IMG/VR virus record: IMGVR_UViG_3300034198_020844
Location: 1 to 23,202 of that record
DNA from: a virus
DNA length: 23,202 nt
Reading direction: 5' to 3' (one strand)
Part shown: positions 1 to 22,798 of the stretch, piece after piece
Numbering within the stretch: the stretch's first letter is position 1
Layout: each line of letters starts with the position of its first letter
The notes under the pieces: model-generated
Told to the model about the DNA's origin: nothing
Seen by the model: only the letters and a program-made list of their open reading frames with translations
Database searches by the model: none
Translations under genes and position numbers: made by a program

Positions 1-747
1 ATGGTCGATGAAGTTCACCAAGCAAAAGCTGATGCTTTGAAAACATTGTTGACCAGTGTATTTTGTAAAGTGCCCATAAGGTGGGGACTAACAGGAACCA
101 TACCAAAAGCTAAATTTGAAGCACAATCATTGTTTGTAAGTTTGGGACCAGTTATTAGTAAACTAAGTGCAAGCGAATTACAAGATCAGGGTGTTCTTGC
201 GAAATGCCATGTAAATATTATCCAATTGAAAGATGATGTTGAATTCACTAATTATCAAAGTGAATTAAAGTACCTTACTGAAGATAAAAAACGATTGGAT
301 GCAATTGCTAATTTGGTATCAAAAATTAAAGAAACAGGAAATACATTGATACTAGTAGATAGAATTGCTGCAGGTAAGGAACTAGTTGATAGGTTGCCTA
401 ATAGTGTATTTGTCAGCGGGGAAACTAAGTTAACTGACCGCAAGGAAGAATATGATGAAGTCGCAACTAGTACGAATAAAATTATCGTAGCAACTTATGG
501 TGTTGCTGCTGTTGGTATTAATATACCCCGCATATTTAACCTTGTGTTACTAGAACCAGGAAAGAGTTTTGTCCGGGTTATTCAAAGTATTGGGCGTGGA
601 ATTCGAAAAGCAGAAGATAAGGATCATGTTATGATATGGGATGTTACATCATCATGTAAGTTTGCTAAAAGGCACCTTACCCAGAGGAAAGCTTATTACA
701 AAGATGCAAATTATCCCTTCGATTTAGAAAAATTGGTATATAAATGA
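1..747 (+). CDS. uvsW: UvsW-like ATP-dependent helicase, C-terminal part (5' end outside window)
   Basis: The first bases lie inside a superfamily 2 helicase gene; the ATG at base 1 is an internal Met just before motif II. Visible in order: DEVH Walker B (residues 3-6), GLTGT motif III (29-33), an ATYGVAAVGIN motif V region (164-174) and QSIGRGIRK motif VI with the arginine fingers (195-203). The order and spacing match T4 UvsW, an RNA/DNA helicase that unwinds branched DNA and R-loops and helps switch T4 from origin-dependent to recombination-dependent replication. The N-terminal domain and Walker A lie upstream of the window. Its position next to clamp-loader, primase and helicase genes fits the T4 replication/recombination cluster. 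The domain assignment is firm; the UvsW name rests on context and on resemblance in the second helicase domain. Another phage SF2 helicase is the alternative. Confidence 0.88.
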   Translation: MVDEVHQAKADALKTLLTSVFCKVPIRWGLTGTIPKAKFEAQSLFVSLGPVISKLSASELQDQGVLAKCHVNIIQLKDDVEFTNYQSELKYLTEDKKRLDAIANLVSKIKETGNTLILVDRIAAGKELVDRLPNSVFVSGETKLTDRKEEYDEVATSTNKIIVATYGVAAVGINIPRIFNLVLLEPGKSFVRVIQSIGRGIRKAEDKDHVMIWDVTSSCKFAKRHLTQRKAYYKDANYPFDLEKLVYK

Positions 748-1901: not shown

Positions 1902-2585
1902 ATGAAAGAAACAAAATATTCTTGTGAATTTTGCAATCGTAGTTTTATAAAAGAATCTACCATTATTAGTCATGTATGTGAATACAAACAACGATGGTTA
2001 AATAAAGACTTGCAGGGAAATAGACTGGGGTTTCAAGCTTGGCTTCAGTTTTATAAAAAACATACAGCATCTAAAAAACAAAAAACATATCAAGAATTTA
2101 TAAAAAATGCTTACTATATTGCATTTGTAAAGTTTGGTAATTATTGTATCAACATTAATGCACTGAACATAAGCAGATATGTAGACTGGTTACTAAAAAA
2201 TCAAATAAAAATAGATACTTGGTGTTCTGATACAATATATTCACGATATCTATGTGAGTACTTGCGCAATGAAGATCCATTAGATGCAATTGCACGAAGT
2301 ATAGAAACTACAATAGAAAAAGCTAAAGAAGAAAATATACTAAGCAAAGATTATATACGGTATGGCAATGCAAATAAAATTTGCTACTCGGTGACAACTG
2401 GAAAAATCAGCCCATGGTTACTATATCAAAGTGTTAGTGGTACTAACTTTTTAGATAAGTTACACGAAGATCAAGTTAAAATGATCATAGATTATATCAA
2501 TCCCGAGCAATGGGCATTAAAATTTAGAAAAGATCCTGATGCAACAACTCAAGTCAAACAATTACTCGACCAAGCTGGGTACTAA
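1902..2585 (+). CDS. Zinc-finger phage protein; possible helicase-loader (gp59-like) candidate
   Basis: 227 aa. The N-terminus carries a C2HC zinc-finger pattern: C8-x2-C11-x12-H24-x-C26, followed by a basic/aromatic KQRW. The remaining ~200 residues are predicted mostly helical and include ISPWLLYQS near residue 170. The shape recalls a zinc-finger family of T4-like cyanophages that I cannot name functionally. T4 gp59, the helicase loader that places gp41 on gp32-coated DNA, is all-helical, 217 aa and encoded in the replication cluster. A few stretches look loosely alike, but gp59 has no zinc finger, so the link is weak. The gene lies 17 bases after the gp62-like gene with no convincing Shine-Dalgarno sequence. 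DNA binding is a fair inference from the finger and the neighbours. Confidence 0.7.
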   Translation: MKETKYSCEFCNRSFIKESTIISHVCEYKQRWLNKDLQGNRLGFQAWLQFYKKHTASKKQKTYQEFIKNAYYIAFVKFGNYCININALNISRYVDWLLKNQIKIDTWCSDTIYSRYLCEYLRNEDPLDAIARSIETTIEKAKEENILSKDYIRYGNANKICYSVTTGKISPWLLYQSVSGTNFLDKLHEDQVKMIIDYINPEQWALKFRKDPDATTQVKQLLDQAGY

Positions 2586-2772
2586 AATTTTACTTAACTG
2601 GACATTAGATAAAAATGACGGTTTAAATAATTGGAATGAAGTGTGCGCTTGGGCTATAGAACAATTTGGATTGCCTGGAGATAAATATCGATTTCATCCC
2701 AAATCTCAAGGTATGGAGTTTATATTTGAAGATGAAAAAGATGCTGTTCATATGTTGTTAAGGTGGCAATAA
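2539..2772 (+). CDS. Small protein 1 of a five-member tandem set (77 aa)
   Basis: The region similar to its neighbours starts near ILLNW (about residue 17) and ends with FEDEKDAVHMLLRWQ at the stop. That terminal signature (acidic-x-E-K/R, aliphatic run, L-R/K-W/F, polar end) recurs at the exact C-terminus of the next four genes. The ATG used overlaps the previous gene by 47 bases in another frame. Such a long overlap is unusual, so the true start may be a non-ATG codon nearer 2587. No membrane segment or cysteine pair is seen; composition is acidic and aromatic (five Trp). Function unknown. Compact size and early position suggest a host-takeover or regulatory protein, but nothing in the sequence proves it. 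Confidence 0.6.
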   Translation: MQQLKSNNYSTKLGTKILLNWTLDKNDGLNNWNEVCAWAIEQFGLPGDKYRFHPKSQGMEFIFEDEKDAVHMLLRWQ

Positions 2773-2779
2773 TTTATTC

Positions 2780-3028
2780 ATGGAATATTTACCGGCATAT
2801 TATTTTGACCATGATAAAGGATGGGACAATACCAAAAGGGGATGGTTAGAAACCAAAGTATATCTAAATAATGATTACCGAATGCAAGTAAAAGAAATCT
2901 TACTTTGGATGTACGATAAGATTGATAACTGTGAAAGACATGCTAGATGGACTATCATTGAAAATTATTTTCATGTTAAGTTTAGATATGAGCGTGATTT
3001 AATACTTTTTCGATTAAGATGGTCTTGA
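2780..3028 (+). CDS. Small protein 2 of the tandem set (82 aa)
   Basis: Begins 7 bases after the previous stop. The N-terminal half (YYFDHDKGWDNTKRGWLETK) has no counterpart in gene 1. The C-terminal half has a helix (VKEILLWMYDKIDN), a middle strand ending in HVKF, and the shared terminal signature RYERDLILFRLRWS at the stop. There is no Shine-Dalgarno sequence; AATAAT at 2768-2773 lies exactly six bases before the ATG, echoing the -10 placement at other early genes, but no good -35 is present. Function unknown; interpreted as a diverged paralogue of its neighbours. Confidence 0.65.
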   Translation: MEYLPAYYFDHDKGWDNTKRGWLETKVYLNNDYRMQVKEILLWMYDKIDNCERHARWTIIENYFHVKFRYERDLILFRLRWS

Positions 3029-3037
3029 TAATTTAAT

Positions 3038-3265
3038 ATGCCTGTAACAATTAGACTTAAGAGTACATATACTCCTGAACACGAGCACTGGTTAGAAAAA
3101 AATGTAGGACCAAGAATGCATTGGTTAAGTAATAGTATTGGTGGTGAGGGTTGGATATTGAAAAGAGAATTGAGAAAATCACAATCTTTGACACAAGTTG
3201 GTTGGACTTTGACCTTAGAAGATGAAAGATTCGCCACATTTTTTTTAATTTACTTTCCACAATGA
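3038..3265 (+). CDS. Small protein 3 of the tandem set (75 aa)
   Basis: Nine bases after the previous gene, and its stop overlaps the next start (ATGA). The order of elements follows the set: an initial strand (VTIRLKSTY), a helix with EHWLEKNVG, a Gly/Trp turn (GGEGWILKREL), then a strand-acidic-aliphatic C-terminus LTLEDERFATFFLIYFPQ. EDERFATFF aligns by eye with EDEKDAVHM of gene 1. GATAAT at 3027-3032 lies five bases before the ATG. No known domain. The conserved ending argues for a real protein rather than a chance reading frame. Confidence 0.65.
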   Translation: MPVTIRLKSTYTPEHEHWLEKNVGPRMHWLSNSIGGEGWILKRELRKSQSLTQVGWTLTLEDERFATFFLIYFPQ

Positions 3266-3543
3266 CAAACATCCCAAAAAGTTTTCAAGATTATGATGAT
3301 AATGATCCACTACTTGATAAAAGAAAAAAGCGTTGGGAATATTGGGCTGCACTAAAAAAGCTTCGGCATGAATATATGCAAACATTAGACGATCTAAATG
3401 GTCAGTTTGATGCATATGATTTTGAAGACTACATCGAAGCTAATTATGGTATAAAAATGAATTTAGTAGATGGCAATATCACAGATGACTATATCATCAT
3501 GGATGAAAAAAAATATTTGATTTTTCTACTTAAGTTTCAGTAA
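3262..3543 (+). CDS. Small protein 4 of the tandem set (93 aa)
   Basis: Translationally coupled to gene 3 through a 4-base ATGA overlap. Very acidic N-terminal region (FQDYDDNDPLLDKRKKRWEY), a helix (ALKKLRHEYMQTLDDL), then DFEDYIEANYGIKM, which matches the place of the [W/Y]-helix-E-x-x-[F/Y]-G segment in the other members. It closes with MDEKKYLIFLLKFQ, equivalent to the shared C-terminal signature. Function unknown; no cysteine, signal peptide or membrane segment. The longer N-terminus may be a member-specific addition. Confidence 0.65.
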   Translation: MTNIPKSFQDYDDNDPLLDKRKKRWEYWAALKKLRHEYMQTLDDLNGQFDAYDFEDYIEANYGIKMNLVDGNITDDYIIMDEKKYLIFLLKFQ

Positions 3544-3557
3544 TTATTCCAAACACA

Positions 3558-3586
3558 GTGACATTTGTTAGTAGTTGAAATATAAT
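3558..3586 (+). promoter_or_regulatory. Sigma-70-like promoter candidate
   Basis: In the 69-base gap before the gene at 3613: GTGACA (3558-3563), a 17-base spacer and a perfect TATAAT (3581-3586). Transcription would start near 3593, leaving a ~20-base leader. It could drive small protein 5, the DexA-like exonuclease and the polymerase-like gene. Confidence 0.5.
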
Positions 3587-3612
3587 ATCTATACTGTTTA
3601 TCCTACAATATT

Positions 3613-3885
3613 ATGGCAATATCAACTAGTACAGGAACTTATAAACAAATTTATATTTCTGAACCTCCCAACAGAGAGCGAGAAAGTTACACACTAGGTA
3701 GTAAAACAGTATATACTTATGATGCTAGATTTCGCAATGAAGATCCAACAGTGTTAATTAAATGGTGTAGAAAAAATTTCGGCGAACGGGGAGTTGGTTG
3801 GGATTTTACTTGTTCTAAACAATTGATTTCATTAGAAATTTGGGATAGCAAATATAAAGTAATATATGAATTATGGAAACATTGA
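3613..3885 (+). CDS. Small protein 5 of the tandem set (90 aa)
   Basis: Separated from gene 4 by a 69-base promoter-containing gap and 8 bases ahead of the exonuclease gene. Residues 1-35 are Ser/Thr/Tyr-rich. The second half has the set's pattern: a strand with TYDARF, a helix (PTVLIKWCRKNFGERGVGW) comparable to WAIEQFGLPGD of gene 1, and a degenerate C-terminal signature WDSKYKVIYELWKH. The most diverged member; membership is inferred from position, size and the aligned helix-turn-strand-helix order. Function unknown. Confidence 0.6.
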   Translation: MAISTSTGTYKQIYISEPPNRERESYTLGSKTVYTYDARFRNEDPTVLIKWCRKNFGERGVGWDFTCSKQLISLEIWDSKYKVIYELWKH

Positions 3886-3893
3886 GGTAAATT

Positions 3894-4451
3894 ATGGATA
3901 TAATGATTGACTTAGAAACACTAGACACTACACCATACTGTGTGATATTAACTATCGGCGTTGTAAAATTTGATCCAAAGGGTTCTGGTGTAACTGAACG
4001 ACTAGAATTGAGGCCCACAATTGAAGATCAAACCGAAATACATAATAGAATTATCAATGAAGATACTTTACGGTGGTGGTCTACTCAAAGTGCTGAAGCA
4101 ATGGAAGAAGCATTAGGCGATAGAGGAAGACAATCGTTTAAAGAATGCATGGAGATTCTTTATAAATTTTGTTGGAATCACCGTGCAGTTTGGAGCAACG
4201 GTGCAGCATTTGATATCGTAGCGTGTGAAACAGGGATGCGACAAACATTGACTGACTACCCTAATCCTATTCCATGGCCATTCTATACAGTTAGAGATAC
4301 AAGAACTTTGTATGAAGTAGCTGGTGTAAGTCTTAAAGATGGCGGTCATGTCACAAGTCACAAAGCAGTAGAAGATGCCGAACGACAGGCTATTGTTGTG
4401 CAACAAGCATATATGAAATTAATGAAAGCAGGATTGGTGACACCACGATGA
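3894..4451 (+). CDS. dexA: DexA-like 3'-5' exonuclease (DEDDh, RNase H-like fold)
   Basis: 185 aa with all five DEDDh catalytic residues in order: D6-x-E8 in the opening IDLET motif, D107 in SNGAAFD, and H156-x4-D161 in HKAVEDAER. This is the DnaQ-type fold, and the NGAAFD and HKAVEDA blocks are typical of the group containing T4 DexA and Rv2179c-like nucleases. T4 DexA (227 aa) degrades DNA 3'-5' using two metal ions. A GAGG ribosome binding site lies six bases before the ATG. The stop overlaps the start of the next gene (ATGA), so the two proteins are probably made together. Because that partner looks like a piece of a C-family polymerase, a proofreading-like or nucleolytic partner role is worth considering; ribonuclease activity is the other possibility. 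Confidence 0.85.
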   Translation: MDIMIDLETLDTTPYCVILTIGVVKFDPKGSGVTERLELRPTIEDQTEIHNRIINEDTLRWWSTQSAEAMEEALGDRGRQSFKECMEILYKFCWNHRAVWSNGAAFDIVACETGMRQTLTDYPNPIPWPFYTVRDTRTLYEVAGVSLKDGGHVTSHKAVEDAERQAIVVQQAYMKLMKAGLVTPR

Positions 4452-5050
4452 AAATTGATTCAGATATTGATATTGATTTGGGATCAAGAGAAAAATTATT
4501 AGATGTGATACCTCATATTAGAGCTAGTATGAGAAAGGTTTATCCCATCCGTCATCATGCGTCAGGTGTTTATGTAACAGACATACCATACGATCCTATT
4601 AATAACATGGCTTCAATAGATTACAAAGAAGCTGAAAAACGAGGCTATTTTAAATTAGATTTGCTTAATGTGCATGTCTATGAAAAAGTTCGGGATGAAT
4701 CACATTTAGTAGAACTAATGCGTGAACCAGATTGGAGTATGCTAAGGGACTATAATAAGATGAAAGGACTAATTCATCTACAAAATCAGTATCAAAATAT
4801 TAAAAAGATGCCTGAACCTATTAATAGTATCCCCAGACTCGCTATGTTTCTAGCGATTATTCGTCCTGGAAAAAAACATTTAATCGGTAAAACTTGGGCT
4901 GAAGTTGCTAAAACTGTATGGGATAAAGGAACTGATGGTTACACTTTTAAAAAGTCACACTCGCTTGGATATTCATGGTTAGTTGCGATACACATGAATC
5001 TGTTATCTGAAGAAGATTCACATTTTAAGAAATTCTTTTCACAAGAGTGA
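4448..5050 (+). CDS. Miniature DNA polymerase III alpha (DnaE/PolC)-like protein
   Basis: 200 aa carrying, collinearly, motifs of bacterial C-family replicative polymerases: SDIDIDLGSREKLLDVI at residues 5-21 (compare PDFDVDF...; D8 and D10 would be the catalytic pair), HHASGVYV at 36-43 (HAAGVV-type), YFKLDLLNV at 67-75 (KFDFLG-type; D71 would be the third catalytic Asp), AMFLAIIRPGKK at 132-143 (ALFRPG-type), and YTFKKSHSLGYSWLVA at 165-180 (FNKSHSAAYA-type). In DnaE these span several hundred residues; here the PHP domain, most of the fingers, the thumb and the C-terminal domains are absent. The gene is coupled to the DEDDh exonuclease and converges with the next gene by 26 bases. It could be a reduced polymerase, a template/primer-binding remnant with a new role, or a decoy of the host enzyme. 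Homology is well supported; activity is unknown. Confidence 0.75.
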   Translation: MKIDSDIDIDLGSREKLLDVIPHIRASMRKVYPIRHHASGVYVTDIPYDPINNMASIDYKEAEKRGYFKLDLLNVHVYEKVRDESHLVELMREPDWSMLRDYNKMKGLIHLQNQYQNIKKMPEPINSIPRLAMFLAIIRPGKKHLIGKTWAEVAKTVWDKGTDGYTFKKSHSLGYSWLVAIHMNLLSEEDSHFKKFFSQE

Positions 5051-5405
5051 TACTTCTGCGCTTTGATCTACGCTTGTTTAATTCACTCATACTACATACA
5101 GGTCCATGAATAATATCTAGATTTTTGTTATTAAATGTCCTTAAATAAGGCTTAAATATAGACCAGTCCCCTTTAAGAAATAAATTAATGGGGACTAACC
5201 TATTTGATTCCCACCACCAAATATCACCTAACTCTAAGAATTTTTCTTTTAAAATCGAGTCAACTATTGATCCGTAATCATAGATAGTAGTTACCATCTC
5301 ATCACGGTTTTGCACTATGCCAACATAATCTTGACCGGCGTAAGAACATACAGTGATGAAAGGATGAGAATCACTTAGTTTTTTGAAAAAATCGTTTTGG
5401 AGCAT
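5025..5405 (-). CDS. Conserved-looking small phage protein, unknown function (126 aa)
   Basis: The only minus-strand gene in the first 17 kb. Opens with FFKKLSDSHPFITVCSYAGQ, continues with strands around DYVGIVQNRDEMVTTIYDYGSI, a Trp-rich block (GDIWWWESNRLVPINLF), and ends with a very basic tail (NKRRSKRRSITLVKRIS) suggestive of nucleic-acid or capsid contact. I believe I have seen this pattern in T4-like aquatic phages, but cannot name it. The 3' end overlaps the convergent polymerase-like gene by 26 bases, and a late-promoter-like AATAAATA lies 19 bases upstream on the minus strand, so late expression is likely. Antisense effects of that transcript on the upstream early block are conceivable. 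Confidence 0.7.
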   Translation of the reverse strand: MLQNDFFKKLSDSHPFITVCSYAGQDYVGIVQNRDEMVTTIYDYGSIVDSILKEKFLELGDIWWWESNRLVPINLFLKGDWSIFKPYLRTFNNKNLDIIHGPVCSMSELNKRRSKRRSITLVKRIS

Positions 5406-6311: not shown

Positions 6312-7283
6312 ATGTTTGATATCCTATCAATTATTCCCGGCAAAAAGAAAAGTTCAAGTAGCGGATGGATAAGTTTTAACGCTATTTGCTGTAGCCATTT
6401 TGGGCATCGACCAGATAGAAGAATGCGCGGGGGTATAAAATTTGATAATCATAATTGGAGCTTTCATTGCTTTAACTGTGGGTTCAAATGTAATTTTACC
6501 TTAGGTAGAAGTATAAACGAAAAAACAAGAAAGTTGTTATCTTGGTCTGGAATTGATCAGACACAAATACAAAAATGGAGTTTAGAAAGTTTACAACAAA
6601 AAGATTTATTAGATTTTTCTAATATAAAAAAACAAAAAATAAAAATAAAATTCGAAGAACGAAAACTCCCAGATGGTGAATTACTTGATAAAACTAATAT
6701 ATCACATAAAGTATACATTGATTATTTGGAAAAAAGAAAAATAGATAGTGCTAGCTATCCATTTTTAATAACACCTAATGATACTGGAAGAATGGCAAAA
6801 AGAATTGTCATACCATATTCCTATAAAAATAAAATAGTAGGACACACTAGTAGATTTTTAGATAACAAAATTCCAAAGTACATAAATGAACAACAACCGG
6901 GATATGTTTTTAATATTGATGTGCAAAAATCTAACTGGCAAGTGTGTATTGTTACTGAAGGAATATTTGACGCACTAAGTATTGATGGTGTAGCAGTAAT
7001 GCATGATGATATTAGCAAAGATCAAGCATTACTACTAAGTACATTGAATAAACAAATAATTGTAGTACCAGATAGAGATATAACTGGATTAAAAATATGT
7101 GATAAGGCATTAGAGCTAGGCTATCAGGTTAGTTTACCTAAATGGGACAAAGATGTTAAAGATGTAAATGACGCAGTAGTAAAATATGGTAAACTACCCA
7201 CACTGATTAGTATTCTGCAAAATGCAACTAATAGTAAAATAAAAATAGAAATGATGAGGAAAAAAATTGTTAAAGGATTATAA
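6312..7283 (+). CDS. 61: DNA primase, T4 gp61-like
   Basis: 323 aa (T4 gp61: 342). An N-terminal zinc-binding region has ligand candidates C27, H32, C53 and C56 (CFNC). A Toprim-type catalytic domain is marked by VTEGIFDAL (E215, residues 213-221) and VPDRD (D253, D255 at 251-255). The primase lays down short RNA primers for lagging-strand synthesis on the T4-type replisome and works physically with the gp41 helicase. That helicase gene follows directly, overlapping by 17 bases and starting at a TTG behind a strong Shine-Dalgarno sequence. No ribosome binding site precedes the primase ATG; a weak -10 box lies six bases upstream. The family assignment is firm. Confidence 0.92.
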   Translation: MFDILSIIPGKKKSSSSGWISFNAICCSHFGHRPDRRMRGGIKFDNHNWSFHCFNCGFKCNFTLGRSINEKTRKLLSWSGIDQTQIQKWSLESLQQKDLLDFSNIKKQKIKIKFEERKLPDGELLDKTNISHKVYIDYLEKRKIDSASYPFLITPNDTGRMAKRIVIPYSYKNKIVGHTSRFLDNKIPKYINEQQPGYVFNIDVQKSNWQVCIVTEGIFDALSIDGVAVMHDDISKDQALLLSTLNKQIIVVPDRDITGLKICDKALELGYQVSLPKWDKDVKDVNDAVVKYGKLPTLISILQNATNSKIKIEMMRKKIVKGL

Positions 7284-8691
7284 TATAGATGTACAAAAAC
7301 TCTTTTTACAAATGATGCTAACAAATGCTGAATTGTATACTAGGGTTATGAATATCATGAACTCTGAAAATTTTGATAAGTCGCTTAGACCAGTGGCTGA
7401 GTTTATGTCAGAATATAGCGAAAAATATAGTTTGTTACCTGACGCCAGTCAGATAAAAGCAACAACAGGAATTGAATTAAGCTTGATTGAAGATTTCGGT
7501 GATAAGCATACTGAATGGTTTCTTGTAGAGTTTGAAGCATTTACTAAACGACAAGAATTAGAAAGAGCTATTCTAAAGTCGGCTGATTTATTAGAAAAAG
7601 GTGACTTCGGACCTGTTGAGAAACTTATTAAAGAAGCGGTTCAAATCAGCCTACAGCGTGACATGGGCACAGACTATTTTGCTGATCCTAAAGCAAGGAT
7701 AAACAAATATTTTAACGCTGGTGGTCAGCAAAGTACAGGCTGGCCACAGATGGATAAATTACTATATGGTGGATTTAGTCGCGGCGAATTGAATATTTTT
7801 GCAGGCGGTTCTGGCTCAGGTAAATCACTAGTAATGATGAATATTGCATTGAACTGGCTTCAAATGGGATTGAGTGGAGTTTATATTAGTTTAGAATTGA
7901 GTGAGGAATTAACTTCACTTAGGACTGATGCAATGTTAACTATGATGAGTACCCGAGATATCCGTAAAGACATTGATAGTACTGAATTGAAGGTCAAAAT
8001 GGCTGCTAAAAAATCAGGTCAGTATCGTGTTAAGGGCTTGCCGGCTCAAAGCAATGTCAATGATATCAGGTCGTATTTGAAAGAAGTGCAGATTCAAACA
8101 GGAATTAAAGTTGACTTTGTGATGATTGACTACTTGGATCTAGTCATGCCAGTCTCAGTCAAAGTGAATCCCAATGATCAATTTATTAAAGACAAGTATG
8201 TATCCGAAGAATTGCGAAATCTAGCTAAAGAGTTGGGAATTCTCATGGTTACTGCAAGTCAGTTGAATCGTAGTGCGGTTGAAGAAATCGAATTTGATCA
8301 TAGTCATATTGCAGGTGGTATTAGTAAAATCAATACAGCAGATAATGTGTTTGGTATCTTTACAAGTCGTAGTATGCGTGAAAGAGGAAAGTATCAAATT
8401 CAATGTATGAAAAGTCGTAGTTCTACTGGTGTAGGTCAAAAGATTGACTTAGAATATAATATTGAAACAATGAGAATTACAGATGATGATCCTGATGGAT
8501 ATGCAGACCAGCAGGCAAAATATAAACCAAATCCCAGCCCCTCTCCTGCGCAACTAATAGATAAATTTAAACCTGAACTCAATAATATTGACGAAAGTAC
8601 TGGCGAAATTATAGAACCTGAACAGAAAAAAATAGTTGCTGATGTACAAGCTACTAAGCTTAAAAAACTACTTAATTCCTTAAAGAAATAA
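7267..8691 (+). CDS. 41: Replicative DNA helicase, T4 gp41/DnaB-like
   Basis: 474 aa (T4 gp41: 475). The helical N-terminal domain is at ~1-130 and the RecA-type ATPase core at ~155-430. Walker A is GGSGSGKS (180-187), Walker B is VMIDYLDL with D288, TASQLNRSA follows as the DnaB H3-type region, and IQCMKSRSSTG carries the likely arginine-finger/basic element. The hexamer moves 5'-3' on the lagging strand and activates the primase. The start is a TTG: GAGGA lies six bases upstream (7256-7260), whereas the next in-frame ATG at 7312 would cut into the N-terminal helix. The overlap with the primase implies coupled translation. The C-terminus ends in a Lys-rich tail (TKLKKLLNSLKK) after a Pro/Glu-rich linker. 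Confidence 0.95.
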   Translation: MLKDYNIDVQKLFLQMMLTNAELYTRVMNIMNSENFDKSLRPVAEFMSEYSEKYSLLPDASQIKATTGIELSLIEDFGDKHTEWFLVEFEAFTKRQELERAILKSADLLEKGDFGPVEKLIKEAVQISLQRDMGTDYFADPKARINKYFNAGGQQSTGWPQMDKLLYGGFSRGELNIFAGGSGSGKSLVMMNIALNWLQMGLSGVYISLELSEELTSLRTDAMLTMMSTRDIRKDIDSTELKVKMAAKKSGQYRVKGLPAQSNVNDIRSYLKEVQIQTGIKVDFVMIDYLDLVMPVSVKVNPNDQFIKDKYVSEELRNLAKELGILMVTASQLNRSAVEEIEFDHSHIAGGISKINTADNVFGIFTSRSMRERGKYQIQCMKSRSSTGVGQKIDLEYNIETMRITDDDPDGYADQQAKYKPNPSPSPAQLIDKFKPELNNIDESTGEIIEPEQKKIVADVQATKLKKLLNSLKK

Positions 8692-8728: not shown

Positions 8729-8974
8729 ATGCAACGAAAAACCCGATCATTACTTGAAGAACTAGAAGCTTTGGGAAATAATAGAGATACTAGTCATATC
8801 ATTGAAAGTAGAGGGCACAATATTATTACTAGTGCAATCAATTTAATTGAGATGATTAATAGACACTATAATCCAGAACAGGCATTAATTCTTGAGAAAA
8901 AGCTTATAAGTGCTATTAAAAATAAGGATCAGGCTCGTTTTGCAAAATCTTTAAGGAAAAACAATGAAACTTGA
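8729..8974 (+). CDS. Small helical late protein (81 aa), unknown function
   Basis: A helical protein with the segment IIESRGHNIITSAINLIEMI (residues 18-37) followed by a Lys-rich end (LEKKLISAIKNKDQARFAKS). The ESRG-x-NII-x-SAI block looks like a family of small proteins of T4-like aquatic phages whose role I do not know; head-assembly (prohead core) involvement would fit its place and size but is inference. Late-promoter box 16 bases upstream and AGGA ribosome binding site at 8718-8721. The 3' end overlaps the next gene by 11 bases. Confidence 0.75.
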   Translation: MQRKTRSLLEELEALGNNRDTSHIIESRGHNIITSAINLIEMINRHYNPEQALILEKKLISAIKNKDQARFAKSLRKNNET

Positions 8975-9893
8975 TGAAGTTTATAATATAAGTAATAGCG
9001 ACCCTGTAAAATTAAGATGGGTGAATAGGTTAGTGAGTAAACTATCAAACTCATTGGATGATGCATTTAAGTCAGGGAAGTTAGAAATGCCCGCTACACC
9101 TCAGAAACCTGGGGAACCTGCTGGTACATCCACTGCAACACCTACAACACCCAAAACTCCAGCAGAAATTAGACAAGAAAAGCTAGCAGCAGCAGGCCAA
9201 GCAGCACAACAACAAATGAAACCTGCCCCAGCAGCCCCAGCAGCCCCAGCAGCCCCAGCAGCCCCAGCAGCCCCAGCAGCCCCAGCAGCCCCTGCGAAAC
9301 CCAAAACTCCAGCAGAAATTAGACAAGAAAAACTAGCAGCAGCGGCTCAAAAAGCACAACAACAAATGAAAGAAGGTAAATCTGCTGCTCAGGTAAAATA
9401 CGCTAAATTAAACAATTTAATCGAATCTATCATTAATGTAGAACATAATATTGTAGAAAGTTCAGAAATCGTTCAAGTCGTAAAAGAACAAGAAACTGGA
9501 AAAATCAGTGGATATATATACAACTATATTACGAAACATGTCGGTGGAAAATTAAAAGACTCTAAACAAGAAAATAATATTCGTAATTTATCAAAACAAA
9601 TAGAAGAAATTTATTCGACCACTAAAGATCCTAAAGAAATCAACCAGTTATTGAGAACAATTTCTAATGTAGCCTATGATTCGTTAGTCAAAAAATCTCA
9701 ATCATCATTAATGGGAACTACTTCTGCCGCAGCCGGCGACACTTCTATGGCTGCTTCGTCATCTTCGAATGCAGCAATTGATATTCGTAAATTAATTTCA
9801 TCCGTAAAAAATTTAGATGCAAACTCATTAGCAGAATTGAAAAAGGTAGTAGATAAAGAGTTACAGACTAAAAAATCCGCTCAACCCGTTTAA
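8964..9893 (+). CDS. Ala/Pro-repeat phage protein, likely virion or assembly component (309 aa)
   Basis: Three parts: a short N-terminal domain (1-45, KLRWVNRLVSKLSNSLDD), a low-complexity middle (45-140) and a helical C-terminal part (145-309). The middle holds seven AAP triplets (residues 90-110) bounded by two near-identical copies of KTPAEIRQEKLAAA (64-77 and 114-127), each extended by AQQQMK. The C-terminal part has charged helices (ESIINVEHNIVESSEIV, ELKKVVDKEL) and a Ser/Ala-rich linker near 250-270. The AAGGA before the ATG lies inside the preceding gene. I do not recognise a named family; being in a late operon, a scaffold, internal head or prohead-core role is plausible. The repeat is likely length-variable between relatives. 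Confidence 0.75.
   Translation: MKLDEVYNISNSDPVKLRWVNRLVSKLSNSLDDAFKSGKLEMPATPQKPGEPAGTSTATPTTPKTPAEIRQEKLAAAGQAAQQQMKPAPAAPAAPAAPAAPAAPAAPAAPAKPKTPAEIRQEKLAAAAQKAQQQMKEGKSAAQVKYAKLNNLIESIINVEHNIVESSEIVQVVKEQETGKISGYIYNYITKHVGGKLKDSKQENNIRNLSKQIEEIYSTTKDPKEINQLLRTISNVAYDSLVKKSQSSLMGTTSAAAGDTSMAASSSSNAAIDIRKLISSVKNLDANSLAELKKVVDKELQTKKSAQPV
9150..9371 (+). repeat. Direct duplication flanking a 9-base tandem repeat
   Basis: Two ~72-base copies at 9150-9221 and 9300-9371 (offset 150 bases, only a few mismatches) flank seven tandem copies of a 9-base unit of the type gcagcccca at 9231-9293. All lie in frame within the 309-aa gene. The C-rich strand stands out against the AT-rich surroundings. 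Confidence 0.9.
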
Positions 9894-12455: not shown

Positions 12456-12782
12456 ATGATCACGCTGACTGATGCGGCATATAAAAAAATTCAACAACAA
12501 TTAAAAAAGCGTGGTAAGGGATTGGGCATCCAAATAGGAGTAAAAACTACTGGATGTTCTGGATTAGCCTACACATTAGAATACTTTGATGGTGTTGACG
12601 ATGAAAATCTATATATTATGTATGGCATTAGTGATGTTGTAGTGGCTATAAAAAAACAACATGAACCATATTTAAATAGATTGAATGTTGATTTTGTTAG
12701 AAATGGGTTGAATGAAGGTTTTGAATTCAAAAATCCAAATGAGCGTGACCGATGTGGTTGTGGAGAAAGTTTTAGAGTTTAA
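12456..12782 (+). CDS. A-type iron-sulfur carrier, IscA/HesB-like
   Basis: 108 aa, the usual length of IscA/SufA/ErpA. The three conserved cluster-binding cysteines are present: C34 in TTGCSGLAYTLEY and C100/C102 in DRCGCGESF, with the family's ~65-residue spacing. N-terminal ITLTDAAYKKIQQQLKKRGK also matches the family (V-T-xx-A). These proteins carry Fe-S clusters from the scaffold to apo-enzymes. In a phage this is an auxiliary metabolic gene that may help mature host or phage Fe-S enzymes during infection; HesB-like genes are known from aquatic T4-like phages. It ends the operon that begins at 11412, so it may be expressed late, when demand would be less obvious. Confidence 0.93.
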   Translation: MITLTDAAYKKIQQQLKKRGKGLGIQIGVKTTGCSGLAYTLEYFDGVDDENLYIMYGISDVVVAIKKQHEPYLNRLNVDFVRNGLNEGFEFKNPNERDRCGCGESFRV

Positions 12783-17548: not shown

Positions 17549-17571
17549 AAAAGGGGCTTAATGCCCCTTTT
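17549..17571. terminator. Bidirectional intrinsic terminator
   Basis: AAAAGGGGC (17549-17557), loop TTAAT, GCCCCTTTT (17563-17571). It separates the convergent coiled-coil and Nudix genes, and has A-run/T-run flanks on both sides so it can serve both. It overlaps the end of the Nudix reading frame. Confidence 0.9.
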
Positions 17572-17974
17572 CTGTTAATGTCTTTAGTTTATCTTGTACA
17601 ACATCAAAATTTACTGTACTAAACAATCCAGGATGTAATGGCTTTGGGTATTGCCCGTCACCTACCCATGCATAACCACAATGTTCATCGTTTAATTTAG
17701 GAATAAACTCATCATCTATTGCGCAAAAAAATGTATGATATGTAAATGAATGATTAATAAATTTTTGTATAGGTATTAATTTAGCGTTTTTTGGAAAATA
17801 ACCTATTTCCTCTTCACACTCTCTTGCGACACCTTCAAACAATGTTTCATTGTTTTCAATTTTTCCACCTGGTATCCCCCAATTACCTGGATTTTTAGTA
17901 TCAGTTCTAAGTAGATATAAGTATCGTTTGGTTCTTTTATTGTAAAAGAACACACCTGCAGATGTATTATTCAT
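17558..17974 (-). CDS. Nudix hydrolase
   Basis: 138 aa with a complete Nudix box G-x5-E-x7-R-E-U-x-E-E-x-G-U: G37, E43, R51, E52, E55, E56, G58, in GKIENNETLFEGVARECEEE. These residues bind the divalent metal that hydrolyses nucleoside-diphosphate-linked compounds. The flanking WGIPGGK and the early RYLYLLRTDTKNPGNW are typical of MutT-like or NudE-type members. Substrates cannot be read from sequence; damaged dNTPs, ADP-ribose, NAD-related compounds or capped RNA are options (T4 NudE is a precedent). Starts 13 bases downstream of the gp15-like gene on the same strand, so it is probably co-transcribed with neck/tail genes. Ends within a shared terminator. Confidence 0.9.
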   Translation of the reverse strand: MNNTSAGVFFYNKRTKRYLYLLRTDTKNPGNWGIPGGKIENNETLFEGVARECEEEIGYFPKNAKLIPIQKFINHSFTYHTFFCAIDDEFIPKLNDEHCGYAWVGDGQYPKPLHPGLFSTVNFDVVQDKLKTLTEKGH

Positions 17975-21212: not shown

Positions 21213-22370
21213 ATGGCAACTCGCAAACCCAAGAAAACCAGTGACCATTTCATCAAGTCGCTTAATCCCCGTGATGCGGATACCAAATATCTAGGGGAAG
21301 AACCTTTTTTCCCAACACAACCAGTTGAAGTTGAACGAAGGGTTGCACTTGCTAGAAGTTTTGCTTGGTACAACCGTTTTTACGGTAAAAAAGATGCCAA
21401 AGAATTGCTTGCGCAATATTGCGACCACTATGATCGGCCGAACGATGCCAAAACCCTACGCAAAGTAGATGAAAAAGAATTCTTGACAACATTTTGCTGG
21501 CTTGCTAGGATGAAACTTAGGGGCCTTGAATTGACTGATTATGAGGGGTCGACCCTTGAAAATGAAATTAGTAGGCTTCTGAAAGTCGTAGCAAAGCCAC
21601 AACTTGTAGAAAAAGAAGAAAAACCCAACAATCGTCCTAACATTCAAGAACTTATGAAGGAAAAGGCTAGTGAGGCAGCAGGAGAACTTGAAGGTCTTTT
21701 TGATGACTTGATTACTACTGGAAAAGCAAATAGCAAGGTAGTTGACATTGTTAGTAAATTCAATGTCATGCCACAACATATTCCATTGATTGTTGAAATC
21801 TGGAAAAGAAAACAAACAGAATTTGATGAATTGTCTCAAGGTCAAGACAAAGACTTGAAAGAGGCTTATAGTCATTTAGGTAAGGTTCAAATTCGCAACA
21901 TTATCAAGTTTATCGAACAAGTACTCGGTGACTTGAACTCTTATATTTCTATCAAGAAAGCAAGTAAAGCACCTCGTAAACGCAAGGCTATTCCGGTTGA
22001 GAAAATCGTCAGTAAACTTAAATATCTTAAAGAATTTAAGGATCTTACGAATAAGCTTGAACTAGTTAGCATTCACCCTACTAAATTGCATGGTGCAAGT
22101 GAGGCTTGGTGTTATGATACTGAAAAGCGTAAATTGCATCACTACATTGCAGATGATTACTCCAAGTCTTTTACTGTCAAAGGTAACACATTGCTTGGGT
22201 TCGATGCAAACAAGTCTGAGATTAAAACTCTTCGGAAACCAGGTGAACAAATCAAAGAGATCATGGGTTCAAAACCCGCGGCAAGAAAATTCTTTGATAA
22301 CATCAAAGCAGTTGCAGCTAAGCCTAACGGCCGATTCAACGAAAATATTATTATTCTAAAGGCATTCTAA
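21213..22370 (+). CDS. Early phage protein of unknown function (385 aa)
   Basis: Start at the ATG 21213, five bases after AGGAG; a TTG at 21195 would add six residues and lies on the expected transcription start. N-terminus is very basic (MATRKPKKTSDHFIKSLNPR), and the middle is helical with FFPTQPVEVERRVALARSFA, YNRFYGKKDAKELLAQYCDH and TFCWLARMKL. A basic stretch APRKRKAIPVEKIVSKLKYL near residue 260 precedes a beta-rich end (SEAWCYDTEKRKLHHYI, FTVKGNTLLGFD). I do not recognise a family with known role, though the pattern feels like a protein shared by T4-like aquatic phages; nucleic-acid binding is likely. Leucine is encoded mainly by CTT, unlike the TTA-rich neighbours. The next gene overlaps by one base. 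Confidence 0.82.
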   Translation: MATRKPKKTSDHFIKSLNPRDADTKYLGEEPFFPTQPVEVERRVALARSFAWYNRFYGKKDAKELLAQYCDHYDRPNDAKTLRKVDEKEFLTTFCWLARMKLRGLELTDYEGSTLENEISRLLKVVAKPQLVEKEEKPNNRPNIQELMKEKASEAAGELEGLFDDLITTGKANSKVVDIVSKFNVMPQHIPLIVEIWKRKQTEFDELSQGQDKDLKEAYSHLGKVQIRNIIKFIEQVLGDLNSYISIKKASKAPRKRKAIPVEKIVSKLKYLKEFKDLTNKLELVSIHPTKLHGASEAWCYDTEKRKLHHYIADDYSKSFTVKGNTLLGFDANKSEIKTLRKPGEQIKEIMGSKPAARKFFDNIKAVAAKPNGRFNENIIILKAF

Positions 22371-22798
22371 TGACACAAAAAATTGACTTAAACAAATATC
22401 AGGACTTTGTAGCAACAGTTACAAGCAAACAATCAAATGGGCTTGACTCATTCATTGAATGTTTACACAACCTTGAAAAGAAAGCAGCAACTGACGGCAT
22501 TCAATTGAATGTCCCTCTACTGCTTACTGCAAGTATCGGCCTTGCAAGCGAGGGAGGCGAGTTTAGTGAGATTGTAAAGAAAATGGCTTTTCAAGGAAAA
22601 CCATACAATGAAGAAAATCGGTGGCATATGCTCCGGGAGTTAGGTGATATCATTTGGTATTGGATCAATGCCTGCAGGGCACTTGGATATGATCCAAATG
22701 AAGTTATCGCCGAGAATGTAAAAAAACTTGAAGCACGATATCCGGGAGGACACTTCGACTCATTCTATAGCGAGAACCGAAAAGAAGGAGATTTGTAA
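22370..22798 (+). CDS. mazG: MazG-like nucleotide pyrophosphohydrolase
   Basis: 142 aa with the single-domain MazG/dUTPase-like metal-binding pattern: E61-x2-E64-x2-E67 in ASEGGEFSEIV and E90-x2-D93 in LRELGDIIWYW. The C-terminal KKLEARYPGGHF is typical of phage MazG. These enzymes cleave NTPs or dNTPs to monophosphate and pyrophosphate; phage versions have been proposed to alter (p)ppGpp levels or to clean the nucleotide pool, and cyanophage MazG prefers dGTP/dCTP in published work. TAATG coupling to the preceding gene and the consensus sigma-70 promoter indicate early expression. A Nudix gene elsewhere in the window shares the broad theme. The substrate cannot be told from sequence. Confidence 0.88.
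   Translation: MTQKIDLNKYQDFVATVTSKQSNGLDSFIECLHNLEKKAATDGIQLNVPLLLTASIGLASEGGEFSEIVKKMAFQGKPYNEENRWHMLRELGDIIWYWINACRALGYDPNEVIAENVKKLEARYPGGHFDSFYSENRKEGDL

Follow-up and report, generated by a model that had tools for sequence, protein, structure and literature searches.

The open reading frame at positions 4448..5050 (plus strand, 200 aa, phrog_11778) of a 23,202-nucleotide viral stretch from IMG/VR, hereafter the window, encodes what we interpret, with a probability of about 0.7, as the C-terminal chain of a minimal DnaE-type polymerase made of two subunits. This C-half corresponds to that part of a split minimal DNA polymerase III alpha which includes the metal-binding site and the fingers. 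The alignments place the predicted metal-binding residues D6, D8 and D71, together with reduced fingers containing the RPG and KSH motifs, on the C-half, and they place the GRGS part of the palm on a separate protein of ~171 aa (the N-half); the two aligned regions abut at E. coli DnaE residues 393/400 without overlap.

Homology and active site of the C-half

The first-pass annotation had reported a series of C-family (DnaE/PolC) motifs in this 200-residue protein. All of them are found in the translation and in order: SDIDIDL (residues 5-11), HHASGVYV (36-43), YFKLDLLNV (67-75), AIIRPGKK (136-143) and KKSHSLGYSW (168-177). The open reading frame and its motif series are real and beyond chance. 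In the PHROG profile search, the C-half matched phrog_11778, "DNA polymerase", with an E-value of 8e-58, and the full-length phage DnaE families more weakly; a match to phrog_405 was also counted as homology support for the split polymerase. There was no match in Pfam, NCBIfam or single-sequence PDB searches. A profile of 75 homologues matched nine PDB sequences at E <= 1, all nine of them DNA Pol III alpha, and these matches are collinear from the DxD through the KSH motif and cover the DnaE chains from residue ~400 onward. A direct hhalign comparison with E. coli DnaE (E 6e-5) paired HHASGV with KHAGGV (510), FKLDLL with KFDFL (553), IRPG with FRPG (638) and FKKSHS with FNKSHS (756). Several GenBank relatives are labelled "DNA polymerase III alpha" or "DnaE-like DNA polymerase III alpha".

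The AlphaFold model of the C-half (pLDDT 94.4, pTM 0.85) leads to the same family. Its 11 top Foldseek matches in the PDB are all C-family polymerases, with a probability of 1.0 and an E-value of 4e-3 for the best one (the Foldseek E-values of the C-half and N-half models do not reach 0.001), and the matches after these 11 are at probability <= 0.08. C-family proteins thus lead both the profile and the structure searches, and the descent from a C-family polymerase that had been proposed is supported by the phrog_11778 assignment, the nine DnaE profile matches and the 11 best structural matches.

Conservation was counted in 105-106 C-half homologues, non-redundant at 90%. D6, D8 and D10 are each invariant (105/105), as are H37, G40, K69, D71, W96, R139, P140, K142 and H171 (106/106). 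The retention of three catalytic aspartates, claimed earlier, holds for D6/D8/D71; the numbering required a partial correction. D71 had been identified properly, as the equivalent of E. coli D555, whereas the pair given as D8 and D10 was shifted by one step, since D6/D8 correspond to D401/D403 and D10 corresponds to D405. It should be noted that the catalytic Mg ions of DnaE are bound by D401, D403 and D555, and that D405 is a DnaE-specific invariant, the PolC residue at this position being Asn (PMC3919608). The invariant D10 and the lack of an embedded exonuclease domain led us to reject identity with PolC. Of the features of DnaE membership, the catalytic Asp triad, the D405 equivalent and the C-family fold (predicted, with Foldseek E > 0.001) are present.

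On the plus strand of the window, the alignment places the DxDxD motif (D6, D8, D10) at 4463..4477, and hhalign places H37-x-x-G40, the counterpart of DnaE KHAGG (E. coli 510-514), at 4556..4567, K69-x-D71, the counterpart of E. coli K553/D555 with the third catalytic Asp, at 4652..4660, and the KSH motif (K168-K169-S170-H171) at 4949..4960. H171 aligns with the steric-gate residue of the E. coli enzyme, H760 (PMC8485763). The RPG motif, R139-P140-G-K142, lies at 4862..4873 and was placed by profile alignment. In M. tuberculosis DnaE1, Arg667 and His787 touch the ligand in the nascent base-pair site (PMC8922275); profile alignment, allowing a chain-numbering offset of 6, assigns R139 and H171 to these two residues, suggesting that the base-pair pocket is retained besides the metal site.

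Much of DnaE is missing. The alignment contains no regions corresponding to the PHP, thumb and C-terminal domains, as had been noted, and there is no counterpart of HhH, OB or the clamp-binding regions either; the lost thumb corresponds to ~E. coli 432-510. The ~188 conserved residues of the C-half leave no room for PHP or (HhH)2, for which there was also no Pfam match, and these two domains are nearly universal among C-family polymerases (PMC3919608). The fingers are shortened by ~100 residues through deletion of the segment ~E. coli 645-745, with the YQEQ and RRAMG motifs. Because the thumb, HhH and the YQEQ/RRAMG segment are lost, the DNA grip and the triphosphate contacts must differ from those of DnaE.

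The N-half and the split point

PF07733 searches of relatives' genomes identified the N-half as a second small protein (phrog_11127), the C-terminus of which reads ...WGVGRGSSVASYVLYLIGIHRINSLYYQLSVDEFLK. The first-pass annotation had described the C-half as a palm/fingers core; a self-sufficient core is not supported, as the palm is divided between two proteins, with the GRGS motif absent from the C-half polypeptide and carried by the separately encoded partner. The N-half aligns to E. coli DnaE 319-393 (hhalign, E 1e-5). Its profile, too, matched nine PDB sequences, all DnaE, at chain residues ~320-454, and within each PDB DnaE chain the N-half and C-half matches do not overlap. As the N-half ends at E. 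coli 393 and the C-half, which starts ~5 residues before the DxD, begins at 400, the two adjoin each other on either side of the 394-399 loop. The AlphaFold model of the N-half (pLDDT 89.2, pTM 0.76) has 14 top Foldseek matches in the PDB, all to C-family polymerases, with a top probability of ~1.

N-half residues G137, G139, R140, G141 and S142 (GRGS) are invariant in 105/105 sequences. The chain stops exactly at ...EFLK in 90 of these 105, with 0 extra residues there and a maximum of 6. A split intein at the junction was considered and rejected because the N-halves end 0-6 residues past this motif. No fused reading frame with both halves was found among 191 C-half and 141 N-half reading frames in 333 loci.

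The N-half was not found in the 23-kb window, which ends 18 kb downstream of the C-half, while the N-half usually lies 40-53 kb downstream; this distance explains its absence. In most close relatives, it is found in that interval on the same strand as the C-half. All 12 of the 12 cultured phage genomes with a C-half encode one C-half and exactly one N-half. In tblastn searches, 90 phage records contained a C-half and 87 an N-half, with a nearly identical host-genus profile, and both halves were present in 15 of 17 further records. Two large contigs with only an N-half (G022 and G026) were considered as orphans and rejected: they share an identical N-half with relative G034, which has another arrangement, with the C-half ~95 kb away, past the ends of those contigs. 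Three other large contigs with one half only (G013, G060 and G068) are probably truncated.

Gene neighbourhood and distribution

The C-half is part of a conserved gene block with the order uvsW-like helicase, phrog_11279, phrog_11758, phrog_11058, C-half, phrog_11637, an intermediate gene, primase and DnaB-type helicase. In the window, the block starts with a fragment cut by the edge, the C-terminal part of a helicase in the UvsW position (1..747, plus strand; PHROG DNA helicase, PF00271 and synteny). It includes the zinc-finger-like protein phrog_11058 conserved upstream of the C-half (1902..2585, plus; PHROG and synteny) and continues to a gp61-type DNA primase (6312..7283, plus) and a gp41-type DnaB-like replicative helicase (7267..8691, plus), both assigned by PHROG, Pfam and synteny. 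The earlier assignment to a T4-like phage is broadly correct, with uvsW, gp61 and gp41 homologues flanking the C-half. A convergent small reading frame, phrog_11637 (5025..5405, minus; PHROG and synteny), overlaps the 3' end of the C-half, as it does in most relatives, and is found near it in 80/80 close and 56/80 distant loci. We note it as a conserved unknown gene, the opposite-strand overlap of which may be an antisense or co-regulatory arrangement.

In relatives, a GroES-like gene and the gp44 clamp-loader gene follow directly after the N-half. A deep branch (L357 and L358, with gene names taken from comparison of translations with annotated relatives) has the cluster N-half, GroES-like, membrane protein, clamp loader, further genes, zinc finger, C-half; in L357, phrog_11058 abuts the C-half directly. 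The halves here flank the clamp-loader gene and are collinear with an unsplit dnaE, an order that fits gene fission, followed by rearrangement, as the possible origin of the split.

The C-half was detected in at least 595 IMG/VR stretches, and the phages that carry it include RaK2-like/Asteriusvirus, GAP32, PA5oct-like and Atu_ph07 phages, as well as Phosso, SCTP-2, Vibrio 2.275.O and the 141-kb Slicko01. A family B polymerase was found in 21/21 of the relatives' genomes searched. C-halves are also present on contigs binned into bacterial and archaeal MAGs (L242-L252), and two Neomarinimicrobiota MAG contigs (L249 and L253; 335 and 153 kb) carry one. On the 335-kb contig there appear to be genes for an N-half and a family B polymerase as well, which makes it resemble a jumbo phage more than a host chromosome.

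Several other observations were made in the window. Runs of small reading frames (~75-97 aa) occur at 2539-3885 (plus) and, in the related locus L093, at 444-1193 and 2650-3209. Several of them end in a D/E-rich stretch followed by an (A)MLFKL.W-like sequence, and similar frames flank the N-half of Phosso; their joint profile matched 247 reading frames in the loci analysed, most pairs of which are too diverged to be detected by pairwise comparison. The window also encodes a 309-aa protein with a PAAPAAP repeat and duplicated KTPAEIRQEKLAAA units (8964-9893, plus), an IscA/HesB-like Fe-S cluster biosynthesis protein (12456-12782, plus; PF01521, E 2e-15), a NUDIX hydrolase (17558-17974, minus) and a MazG-type pyrophosphohydrolase (22370-22798, plus).

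Function, alternatives and known systems

Under the two-chain polymerase reading, the chains would associate and rebuild a Pol-beta-like palm, in which the GRGS of the N-half would hold the dNTP triphosphate beside the two-metal site, and the C-half would hold the metals, the primer end and the nascent base pair, with H171 as the putative steric gate. Such a heterodimer may extend primers as a specialised or accessory polymerase in a T4-like replisome, for example in lagging-strand primer extension, gap filling or repair, and the main replicase of the same replisome would be the family B enzyme. The missing thumb, HhH, OB and clamp-binding regions imply that firm DNA binding would come from partners (clamp, SSB, primase-helicase). 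Given that it has no thumb and no clamp-binding regions, the split polymerase is probably poorly processive alone and reliant on other replisome proteins. Complex formation and activity of the two halves are inferred, and several observations count against this reading: in most genomes the halves are far apart, without operon-enforced stoichiometry; the Foldseek E-values stay above 0.001; thumb, HhH and part of the fingers are lost; the N-half lies outside the window; and a few large contigs have one half only. On balance, we consider it fairly likely that the pair is an active heterodimeric C-family polymerase of ~370 residues without thumb, PHP or HhH, with a two-chain active site, operating beside a family B replicase.

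The pair could instead be a non-templated nucleotidyltransferase derived from the DnaE palm, with a role, for example, in nucleotide signalling, end-tagging or terminal transfer. Reuse of NTase folds for functions of this type is frequent, and the loss of the thumb, HhH and much of the fingers, with the two-metal site and GRGS kept, points in this direction. However, the residues predicted to contact the base pair and the sugar are invariant (R139, equivalent to Arg667, and H171, equivalent to H760/His787), and the genes are placed among primase, helicase and clamp loader, making this possibility rather unlikely. We consider less probable still a polymerase/proofreader unit formed by the C-half with the Rv2179c-like 3'-5' exonuclease encoded upstream (3894..4451, plus; PF16473, E 3e-30). 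The stop codon of the exonuclease gene overlaps the C-half start (4448-4451), and the earlier pairing of the two stands within the close clade, where the gene is found near the C-half in 65/65 loci with enough upstream sequence and is directly adjacent in 39. Atu_ph07 and CBB also have a Pol III epsilon-like protein encoded elsewhere in the genome, which would favour a proofreading connection. The pairing does not extend to distant relatives, the exonuclease being found beside the C-half in 0/74 distant viral and 0/11 MAG loci. It is, therefore, not a general partner, and an obligatory role is ruled out outside the close clade.

The truncated architecture might also be taken as a sign of a catalytically dead structural subunit or, as had been suggested, a decoy aimed at the clamp or proofreading subunits of the host. 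The active-site residues are the most conserved positions, down to ~30% identity, and dN/dS of the C-half is ~0.09 among close relatives; the PHP domain and the CTD, through which DnaE binds epsilon and the clamp, are both missing from the C-half. No support for the decoy was found, and this alternative is very improbable; the invariant active site agrees with the earlier view that the C-half is no pure remnant. Finally, the C-half has the complete catalytic Asp triad along with the steric-gate His, and its predicted single-chain fold is confident, so that it might act alone, as a mini-polymerase or primer-extension factor. This stand-alone role, also considered earlier, would require catalysis without the nucleotide-binding GRGS part of the palm, which is invariant in a partner present in 12/12 cultured phage genomes, and we hold it to be extremely unlikely.

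If the two-chain polymerase is active, it would show how little of the bacterial replicase suffices to synthesise DNA. It would also show that the active site of a polymerase is divisible between two genes and conserved in this state among highly diverged phages, and that a single virus can use a bacterial-type polymerase alongside a eukaryote-like one. To our knowledge, no C-family polymerase would be smaller, and no other natural C-family palm is known to be divided within the active site without the involvement of an intein. The precise split point and the invariant residues allow a direct test of the idea with two small proteins of cultured phages.

The first-pass annotation knew of no described system of this kind; the split polymerase is not new, as Iyer et al. 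2021 predicted a minimal Pol III in two parts for jumbo phages of "group 2.2" and regarded it as a possible model of ancestral Pol III (PMC7824862). The window represents an uncultured member of that system (phrog_11778 and phrog_11127), with nothing essential different. That system combines a separate C-terminal part for Mg and template binding, to which the 200-aa protein corresponds here, with an NTP-binding N-terminal part encoded at a distance in the same genome and with a family B DNA polymerase. We found no published experimental test of DNA synthesis by the split enzyme in the literature. The present analysis adds to Iyer et al. 2021 the split point, the invariant active site, the counts that show a near-strict co-occurrence, the structure models, the branch with halves flanking the clamp loader, and the status of the exonuclease as a clade-specific neighbour. 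Two genome reports describe a truncated Pol III alpha-like protein in CBB (CBB_328, 172 aa) and in Atu_ph07 (gp316), one per genome, and their passages on it do not mention a C-half as its complement (PMC5259590, PMC6102473). The size of CBB_328 and the gene number of gp316, near the clamp loader, suggest that both are N-halves. PF07733 was found in 52% of a marine jumbo-phage cluster (PMC9123017), and a viral minimal PolX is on record (PMC11646218).

Microbacterium phage OverHedge has a natural DnaE split of another form, with adjacent 346-aa and 768-aa genes (gp55/gp56; L354, 1974-5325), both annotated DnaE-like, and phrog_13169 (463 aa), phrog_11165 (782 aa) and phrog_21652 (476 aa) suggest that there are more reduced or split phage DnaEs. 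The minimal viral PolX, which we take to be African swine fever virus Pol X, is a precedent for a very small NTase-fold polymerase that consists of the NT fold and fingers only, but it belongs to the X family, is a single chain and has an unrelated origin. The bacterial DnaE enzymes are also among the closest known systems (E. coli Pol III alpha 2HNH/5FKV, Taq 2HPI/3E0D and M. tuberculosis 7PU7/5LEW). As in these enzymes, the Asp triad, D405, HAGG, KFD, RPG and KSH elements are ordered along the chain, with GRGS on the partner; unlike them, the viral protein pair is encoded by two genes, lacks PHP, thumb, HhH, OB and CTD, and has fingers ~100 residues shorter.
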